A model generated the notes under the pieces. That model had not been told where the DNA came from, searched no databases, and was given only the letters and a program-made list of their open reading frames with translations. Below are positions 45,126 through 46,557 of a stretch of DNA of 64,000 bases, in pieces. The stretch comes from Aureimonas frigidaquae (GTDB lineage: Bacteria; Pseudomonadota; Alphaproteobacteria; Rhizobiales; Rhizobiaceae): positions 124,001 to 188,000 of the forward strand of contig NZ_BBWR01000005.1 in NCBI RefSeq assembly GCF_001463905.1. Reading direction: 5' to 3'. The position numbers were made by a program, and so were the translations under genes. Each line of letters starts with the position of its first letter. Positions within the stretch are counted from its first letter, which is position 1.

Positions 45126-45497
45126 ATGATCCGACGGTTCATGCGTGCGGCCATCATGGCGATGGCACTTGGCGGCGGTGTCGCTGCCGGCATGGGCGGC
45201 GCTCAAGCCCAGGAGTTGCGCTTTGGTGTGACGGCTGCCCAGGCGCCGACATTCCAGGAGGTCCAGTATGGCCGGGACCGGTGGCACGACCATCGGCGCG
45301 ACCGCTGGCGCGACGACCGGCGCGGCGGCTGCGACGCGCGGCAGGCTCTGCGCAAGGCGGACCGCATGGGCGTCCACCGCGCACGCATCGTCGATGCCGG
45401 GCGCCGCTCGGTAACGGTTGCCGGACGCGATCGCGGCGGGCGCACCTTCATCCGCTTCGCCAATGTGCGGGGATGCCCTGTGGTCGGCGGTCGCTGA
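45126..45497 (+). CDS. Small secreted protein of unknown function
   Basis: A 123-residue protein with a signal peptide (about residues 1-30, ending AQA). The mature part has an Arg/Asp/His-rich stretch (WHDHRRDRWRDDRR) and a C-terminal domain bounded by two cysteines, CDARQALRKADRMGV and RFANVRGC, which could form a disulfide. Similar short proteins are common in Rhizobiales, with no assigned function. AGGAGG is well placed before the ATG. A candidate small RNA occupies the downstream gap, so this transcript may end in it. Confidence 0.7.
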   Translation: MIRRFMRAAIMAMALGGGVAAGMGGAQAQELRFGVTAAQAPTFQEVQYGRDRWHDHRRDRWRDDRRGGCDARQALRKADRMGVHRARIVDAGRRSVTVAGRDRGGRTFIRFANVRGCPVVGGR

Positions 45498-45504
45498 AAC
45501 TCCG

Positions 45505-45650
45505 CTATCCGGCGGATGCATGGCTGCCATGCATTGCGCCGGGTAGCTCACCCCCGCGGGATATGCGATCAACATTGCCAGCGGGCATCCTCCTCCCAGC
45601 CCGCAACTTTAGAAGCCCGCCCGGTCCTCCCCCGGTGCGGGCTTTTTCTT
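45505..45650 (+). ncRNA. Candidate trans-acting small RNA, alpha-r14/NfeR1-like
   Basis: Three consecutive stem-loops fill the gap. Hairpin 1 (45509-45542) pairs CCGGCG with CGCCGG and TGCATGG with CCATGCA. Hairpin 2 (45581-45604) pairs GCGGGC with GCCCGC and shows CCTCCTCCC in its 12-base loop. Hairpin 3 (45615-45642) is a terminator with TCCTCCC in the loop. Unpaired anti-Shine-Dalgarno CCUCCUCCC motifs in loops are the hallmark of the alpha-r14 family of Rhizobiales. The 5' end is uncertain; no clear promoter is seen, so it could also be the 3' part of the upstream mRNA. Confidence 0.6.
45612..45650 (+). terminator. Rho-independent terminator (third hairpin of the sRNA candidate)
   Basis: GCCCGCCCGG pairs with CCGGTGCGGGC around a TCCTCCC loop, followed by TTTTTCTT. 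A strong terminator, 115 bases past the stop of the upstream secreted-protein gene. Confidence 0.85.
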
Positions 45651-45745
45651 TGGCTGGAACGAATGTCGCACCTGGCAGTTGTTTGTTAGCGATTTGTTAA
45701 GCCGCGGCGGTTGGCGCGCGGCCGCCAGAGGGAAAGGTGCGTATC

Positions 45746-46030
45746 ATGAGGAAATTGACTATTGCCGGTTGTTCGGCCTTGCTCCTTGCCGTTACGGGCT
45801 GCCAGTCGGTCGACCGCGAGATCGCGGCGCCGGCGGCCATTGGCGGTCTTGGTGGAGCGGCCATCGGCGCCGCGGCAACGGGTGATCTGGGCGGAGCGCT
45901 GATCGGCGGTGCCATCGGTACGGCGGCGGGCGCGCTGGTCGGCGCCTCCACGCGCCGCGGCGAATGCGTCTACCGCGACGATTACGGCCGCCGTTACACG
46001 GCCCAGTGCCCGCGCGGCTATCGCGGCTGA
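45746..46030 (+). CDS. Small glycine-zipper lipoprotein
   Basis: A 94-residue protein with a lipoprotein signal ending LLLAVTGC (Cys near residue 19). It is followed by glycine-zipper repeats (AAIGGLGGAAIGAAATGDLG, then GGALIGGAIGTAAGALVGAS), as in SlyB/OsmB-like outer-membrane lipoproteins. The C terminus has two cysteines and the sequence YRDDYGRRYTAQCPRGY. ATG 45746 is chosen because GGAAAGG precedes it; a GTG three codons earlier is possible. Confidence 0.8.
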   Translation: MRKLTIAGCSALLLAVTGCQSVDREIAAPAAIGGLGGAAIGAAATGDLGGALIGGAIGTAAGALVGASTRRGECVYRDDYGRRYTAQCPRGYRG

Positions 46031-46092: not shown

Positions 46093-46557
46093 ATGATGGG
46101 AATGGCAGCCAAGTCGCGCAGGTGGATCGCTCCGGTCCTCCTGATCATGGCCACCGGCTGGACAGCACCGCAGGCGGCTGCCGCACCGGTGGCGCCGTCC
46201 CGGCCGGCGGCGGCGTCCACCACCGCGGCAGGGCCGATCCAGCTTGTGCAGGGCACGACGGATTTCGGAGAGATCCTGCGCGGCGTCCAGCGCGACCAGG
46301 ACATACGCGAAGGACGCCGCCCGCCGCCGCGCTACCGCGACGACCGGCGCTGGGACCGCAACGACCGCTGGGAGCGTGAACGCCGCTGGGAGCGGGACCG
46401 GCGGGACCGCCGCCGGTGGGAGCGGCCCTACGAGCCGCGCGCCTATCGTGGATTAAGCCGCCGCCAGGCAGCCTGCGCCCAACGCTACCGAACCTACGAT
46501 CCGCGGACGAACACCTTCTTCATCCGCCCGGGCGTGCGCGCCGTCTGCCGGCTCTGA
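46093..46557 (+). CDS. BA14K-like secreted protein
   Basis: A 154-residue protein with a signal peptide (about residues 1-32, ending AAA). The middle (about 75-120) is almost wholly Arg, Asp, Glu and Trp, with repeats of the type RWDRNDRWERERRWERD. The C terminus, CAQRYRTYDPRTNTFFIRPG, has the BA14K pattern (Cys, RYR-Y, N-T-F, final Cys), first described in an immunoreactive Brucella antigen with lectin-like properties. GGGAG precedes the ATG. A strong terminator follows. Confidence 0.72.
   Translation: MMGMAAKSRRWIAPVLLIMATGWTAPQAAAAPVAPSRPAAASTTAAGPIQLVQGTTDFGEILRGVQRDQDIREGRRPPPRYRDDRRWDRNDRWERERRWERDRRDRRRWERPYEPRAYRGLSRRQAACAQRYRTYDPRTNTFFIRPGVRAVCRL

Follow-up and report, generated by a model that had tools for sequence, protein, structure and literature searches.

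Does the gap between two small forward-strand genes in the window (the whole 64,000-nt stretch of DNA analysed here, part of a 4.1 Mb genome from Aureimonas, family Aurantimonadaceae of the Alphaproteobacteria) hold a small-RNA gene, and, if so, which part of its strongly folding sequence belongs to the RNA? The gene upstream of the gap (45126–45497) codes for a 123-aa secreted-looking protein for which a Pfam search returned no match, and the gene downstream (45746–46030) for a glycine-zipper-like protein (Pfam match below cut-off). The initial annotation had read the gap as a three-hairpin RNA of the alpha-r14 family, whose members are discrete, Hfq-independent, stress-induced transcripts. 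As a fold, the three hairpins were borne out: the 146 nt at positions 45505–45650 reached −72.3 kcal/mol, versus a mean of −52.8 (SD 3.74) for dinucleotide shuffles (z = −5.21), and none of 200 shuffles was as stable. The main hairpins were H1 (45505–45546), H2 (45581–45604) and a terminator-like hairpin (about 45611–45646), with two small stems between H1 and H2. The proposed placement of two motifs in loops was likewise confirmed, with CCTCCTCCC (45589–45597) entirely within the 12-nt loop of H2, and TCCTCCC (45625–45631) making up all 7 nt of the loop in the last hairpin, behind which comes a U-rich tail. Counts of CCTCCTCCC were unremarkable, both in the window (2 observed, 1.06 expected) and genome-wide (46 sites versus 50 for the reversed pattern, i.e. 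no enrichment), so that the signal above chance lies in loop placement, the terminator-like hairpin and conservation rather than in motif number.

Covariance models supported the family assignment in part. At gathering scores, Rfam found nothing in the window; among relaxed matches the best was ar14 (RF02344), aligned at 45529–45649 with 38.8 bits (E = 1.8e−5 for the genome), short of the gathering cut-off of 58.8 and with non-standard pairs in its first helix. The CcsR1 model (RF02791) scored 17.2 bits at the locus against a cut-off of 65.3, and ar15 (RF02345), which as a positive check found AbcR in five of eight named loci, gave no match in 45400–45750 up to E = 10, nor elsewhere in the genome. 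According to passages of PMC10746234, alpha-r14 RNAs consist of three hairpins, each with CCUCCUCCC in its loop. In the window, the loop of H1 lacks the motif and the terminator loop carries UCCUCCC, leaving two motif hairpins rather than three. What stands of the alpha-r14 assignment, then, is that ar14 is the best Rfam family and that the loops are anti-Shine-Dalgarno in character; with both the score and the three-module structure falling short, we rejected strict membership.

The part of the fold that we would read differently is H1. Its core is a perfect 15-bp dyad, GCATGGCTGCCATGC (45518–45532, no strand assigned), which agrees with GCAT-N3-TG-N3-T, a box that PMC7486931 puts forward for the VtlR of Brucella and Agrobacterium. 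The same box is placed at −61 to −49 of the S. meliloti abcR1 promoter (PabcR1) in an excerpt of PMC8844928, where trimming the promoter past it lowered activity more than 22-fold. NfeR1, the founding ar14 RNA, is activated by LsrB through a box TGCA-N6-GCAT at about −72 to −57 (PMC10746234), similar to the window dyad but not identical, whereas the fit to the LsrB/VtlR box is exact and the predicted position equals that in S. meliloti PabcR1. Judged by sequence, we therefore regard the dyad as a putative LsrB/VtlR operator, and H1 as more likely a DNA landing site for this regulator than an RNA hairpin: real as a fold, yet probably not part of the RNA.

That H1 belongs to the transcript, giving an alpha-r14 RNA of about 120–145 nt with three hairpins as first proposed, seems quite unlikely to us. 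Such an RNA would agree with the high stability of H1, with ar14 as the best family and with the extent of its alignment, and it would explain paired changes in the outer arms of H1 between the orthologous loci L032 and L033 (seen by eye), since an operator alone needs no pairing. It sits poorly with the sub-threshold score and the irregular first helix of that alignment, with the absence of CCUCC from the H1 loop, and with the recurrence of the dyad, at AbcR1-like spacing, upstream of paralogues that have no matching outer arms. These arms flank the dyad in an extended inverted repeat (45505–45546, forward strand); compared by eye, they are able to pair in the window and in the orthologous loci L032 and L033, each time with different letters, and also in L034, a third orthologue, there with two internal mismatches. 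They may extend the operator or may form a stem at the 3′ end of the upstream mRNA.

Across the genus, the dyad keeps close company with the RNA. When 21 loci were aligned from the upstream flank to the terminator, only one block ahead of the promoter region was strongly conserved, with the consensus GCATGGCNGCCATGC, and 21 of 22 terminator-anchored loci had the dyad (0–4 mismatches) centred 95–103 nt before the terminator loop, the exception being L060, with no dyad at the expected place. Its exact form, GCATRGCWGCYATGC, had 19 occurrences, spread over 13 of the 21 Aureimonas genomes, compared with a single site for the reversed control, and at 17 of these 19 sites (some of which are one locus in several species) TCCTCCC followed after 54–58 nt, always in the same orientation. 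The remaining two dyads, L092 (C17:35536 in the genome of the window) and L108 (G007:C1), have no TCCTCCC at this spacing and precede short ORFs whose DUF3563 matches stayed below cut-off; the operator may thus be common to small-protein genes as well.

In a sample of 151 family genomes, which includes two Aureimonas genomes and shares the genome of the window with the count above, the dyad was found at 68 sites in 53 genomes (reversed pattern, 5 sites), with TCCTCC 50–78 nt downstream at nine of the 68. Set against 17 of 19 in Aureimonas, this led us to reject the dyad as an exclusive mark of anti-Shine-Dalgarno RNAs; outside the genus it marks other genes too, or occurs by chance. Twenty of the other 59 family dyads were fetched, and three of them lay ahead of ORFs beginning MGF.TE.F, the rest lying before or inside other frames. 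At the three loci concerned (L252, L253 and L255) the dyad precedes a 54–56-aa ORF with MGF.TE.F..RPRP, and the ORF of L252 had a sub-cut-off match to DUF1127 (17.5 versus 23.3 bits).

The distance from the dyad also indicates where the RNA would begin. When 257 Gb of named genomes were scanned for dyads with TCCTCCC 45–75 nt behind them, 102 stretches came up, 80 of which were listed; the listed matches included plainly unrelated bacteria, attributable to chance, and many Rhizobiales with the dyad before AbcR1-like or multi-hairpin RNAs. Rfam searches of eight of the 80 listed stretches identified five as ar15/AbcR and three as ar14 over cut-off. From the dyad centre to the start of the AbcR1 model the distance was 54, 54, 54, 55 and 54 nt in the five loci, and to the start of the ar14 model a less constant 48, 50 and 110 nt. 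Applied to the window, the 54-nt spacing would place the RNA start at about 45579, just before the CCUCCUCCC hairpin. The predicted RNA (45579–45649, forward strand, about 71 nt) folds as two hairpins at −36.3 kcal/mol: H2 (45581–45604), a 6-bp stem closing the loop AUCCUCCUCCCA with its anti-Shine-Dalgarno CCUCCUCCC at 45589–45597, and the terminator-like hairpin (45611–45646), whose loop UCCUCCC (45625–45631) would be a second anti-Shine-Dalgarno element ahead of the U-rich tail. A promoter and terminator scanner run on the RNA locus did not call the 45611–45646 hairpin an intrinsic terminator.

Between dyad and RNA lies what appears to be a promoter. In a dyad-anchored profile of 20 loci (without L057, L060 and the three-hairpin loci), conserved blocks stood out at +15 to +22 (−35 region) and at +39 to +47 (extended −10), with flanking columns from −37 to −9 holding at most 0.66 bits. 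The corresponding candidate elements in the window, both on the forward strand, are a −35 region at 45543–45549 (GTAGCTC; for example CTGGT or TTGCT in aligned paralogues, with one invariant T) and an extended −10 at 45564–45572 (TGCGATCAA; TGGCATAAA or alike in several paralogues). The hexamers are weak, the window −10 (GATCAA) being among the poorest, and a consensus scanner reported no sigma-70 promoter at the RNA locus.

The initial annotation had allowed for either an own promoter or release from the 3′ UTR of the upstream mRNA; the first finds support in a conserved, if predicted, promoter layout, and the second is disfavoured. We consider release from the upstream mRNA unlikely, even though the predicted RNA start lies only about 80 nt past the upstream stop codon and the upstream gene stays with the RNA in three orthologous loci (82–86% identity), where the upstream and downstream proteins, both beside the RNA, are 69–74% and 81% identical, respectively. 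Also in favour of such an origin is the DUF1127-like frame found upstream of 18 of 30 ar14 loci by a simple pattern, ending no more than about 14 nt from the match in 12 of them (L086 and L089 were unoriented, and the pattern overlooked L079, in which a DUF1127-like frame can be seen by eye). The upstream protein of the window, however, has no Pfam match, operator-like, −35 and −10 blocks intervene between gene and RNA, and the neighbour genes of the window were absent from all eight other paralogous loci tested, which nevertheless have the promoter layout in common. Two genes downstream of the RNA, positions 46096–46557 of the window encode a BA14K-domain protein over the Pfam cut-off.

We then considered whether the hairpins themselves are conserved. 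Using a 163-nt stretch as query, blastn hit 20 of the 21 Aureimonas genomes and one of 40 others (L049 in G023, without any TCCTCCC); many of the genus matches are confined to about 35 nt of terminator sequence. At E = 0.01, the ar14 model matched 15 of 20 blastn loci, six of them over cut-off, and was not found in L039, L040, L048, L049 and L058, four of which are two-hairpin loci. Across 22 aligned loci, the TCCTCCC of H2 was invariant, and the stems around it differed widely. As these loci had been selected by GTCCTCCC in the terminator loop, the invariance of that loop arises by construction and is no test. The expectation that loops would be better kept than stems thus held for H2, whose stems vary while pairing is maintained: among 28 distinct arm pairs (six from three-hairpin loci), own arms gave a mean helix of 6.3 compared with 4.7 for swapped arms, and none of 2000 permutations was as good, a statistic that ignores relatedness. 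The terminator showed two pairs with two-sided changes. RNAalifold run on alignment A1 did not recover H2, because MAFFT misaligned stems of differing sequence; L060 was part of A1 and left out of A2, and three-hairpin loci were excluded from both.

These data bear on the simplest reading of the gap, namely that it holds a mere terminator of the upstream gene next to a chance CU-rich hairpin. We find this very improbable: a loop kept on a changing stem in H2 and promoter-like conservation upstream are hard to reconcile with it, for all that the last hairpin ends in a U-rich tail, CCTCCTCCC shows no genome-wide enrichment and many genus matches consist mainly of the terminator. At L112 and L119, two relatives beside a response-regulator gene, UUCCUCCC is kept in the first loop and the terminator loop lacks the motif.

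Taken together, an independent small-RNA gene is the probable reading of this locus, with its own LsrB-dependent promoter and two anti-Shine-Dalgarno loops repressing translation, related to alpha-r14/NfeR1 and cuckoo RNAs. The gene is probably real, and would be a variant of the alpha-r14/cuckoo kind that has two modules and stands behind an LsrB-type operator. With alpha-r14/NfeR1 (RF02344; S. meliloti SmelA075) it shares anti-Shine-Dalgarno loops on variable stems, the conserved H2 loop among them, a terminator loop that bears a motif, multiple copies in the genome and, by sequence fit and spacing, an LsrB-type box upstream of the promoter. It differs in having two motif hairpins instead of three, a predicted length of about 71 nt instead of 115–123 nt, and UCCUCCC instead of CCUCCUCCC in the second loop. 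SmelC201 is a two-hairpin relative in S. meliloti.

Tandem anti-Shine-Dalgarno modules, two in the window, are also the hallmark of the cuckoo/CcsR group (RF02791), which includes the Rhodobacter RNA RS0680a, with two stem-loops that each carry an anti-Shine-Dalgarno motif; module number is variable among cuckoo RNAs, as set out in part of PMC3927594. CcsR RNAs arise by processing of a transcript shared with ccaF1, and a DUF1127 gene is linked to them at the CIN1 locus (PMC10253847, section on this locus), whereas no DUF1127 gene precedes the window copy. An excerpt of PMC5107571 lists Aureimonas among the organisms with homologues of Paracoccus sRNAs. AbcR1 (ar15, RF02345) offers an anti-Shine-Dalgarno seed and the same dyad at what is predicted to be the same distance; in S. 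meliloti, however, AbcR1 adjoins lsrB, while here lsrB lies on contig C19 and the window copy on C5. Given this separation and the lack of an ar15 match, AbcR1 orthology was rejected.

The genome has further candidate RNAs of this kind. Three ar14-type matches were found in it, at C18:195574 (91.2 bits), at C2:106263 (41.5 bits) and in the window (38.8 bits), only the first exceeding the cut-off; across 61 genomes, this one included, 37 had ar14 matches over cut-off, and none of 14 controls matched. The C18 copy (C18:195574–195694; about 1420–1700 of locus L103) is a canonical three-hairpin ar14 match, beginning about 11 nt after the stop codon of a 47-aa DUF1127 gene, a CIN1-like layout as in Rhodobacter ccaF1-CcsR.

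A homologue of the presumed regulator was found in every Aureimonas genome searched. With the LysR gene beside the tandem AbcR RNAs of a Rhizobium locus as query, an arrangement also reported for S. meliloti, where lsrB adjoins AbcR1, each of 21 Aureimonas genomes gave one match at E = 1e−60 or better (65–68% identical); the copy in the genome of the window matches the query at 49 of its first 60 positions. Within 420 nt 3′ of lsrB, at least two TCCTCCC motifs were present in 20 of the 21 genomes (L223–L243, with L233 on C19 in the genome of the window), L242 having none. These motifs, in the position of AbcR1, come with a terminator-like hairpin by eye and are preceded by the strict box in 10 of 21 genomes and by a looser GCAT-N7-AT dyad in 16 of 21; the Rfam ar15 model found nothing in the genome of the window. 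It is conceivable, though we would put it forward only tentatively, that Aureimonas has anti-Shine-Dalgarno RNAs in two sets under separate control, one of canonical three-hairpin RNAs tied to DUF1127 genes and one of short, stand-alone two-hairpin copies behind LsrB operators, with LsrB acting in this genus largely via the latter as a duplicated group of small blockers of ribosome-binding sites, and that this operator is common to the lsrB-adjacent AbcR-like RNA and to DUF3563-like genes.

The locus suggests that an anti-Shine-Dalgarno module reduced to two hairpins can persist throughout a genus that is not one of the rhizobia studied so far, apparently controlled by the same regulator as NfeR1 and AbcR1. 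It also cautions that a strong 'hairpin' adjoining an RNA gene may turn out to be an operator belonging to the promoter, and the dyad opens the Aureimonas LsrB regulon to direct testing. In the mechanism that we propose, the LysR-type regulator LsrB/VtlR would bind the dyad at 45518–45532, whose centre lies about 54 nt ahead of the RNA start, and activate a sigma-70-type promoter (−35 at about 45543–45549, extended −10 at 45564–45572), which would yield the two-hairpin RNA of about 71 nt (about 45579–45649). Its loops, AUCCUCCUCCCA and UCCUCCC, would serve as anti-Shine-Dalgarno seeds pairing with G-rich ribosome-binding sites, and could in this way block translation of several mRNAs, plausibly those of transporter and carbon-uptake genes. 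The anti-Shine-Dalgarno loops of NfeR1 block ribosome-binding sites redundantly (as described in part of PMC10746234), and by analogy the loops of the window RNA may do so as well.

Targets were predicted from 30 of the 46 occurrences of CCTCCTCCC in the genome, among which five motif complements lay 4–9 nt before ORFs of at least 238 aa (with putative start codons). The products were a glycerol kinase, a sugar-type periplasmic binding protein, a UrtD/LivG-like ABC ATPase, a carboxyltransferase and a RuBisCO-like protein. Transporter and carbon-uptake targets, here predicted without a control set, would fit NfeR1. Three shorter frames, of 50, 77 and 191 aa, came up as well.
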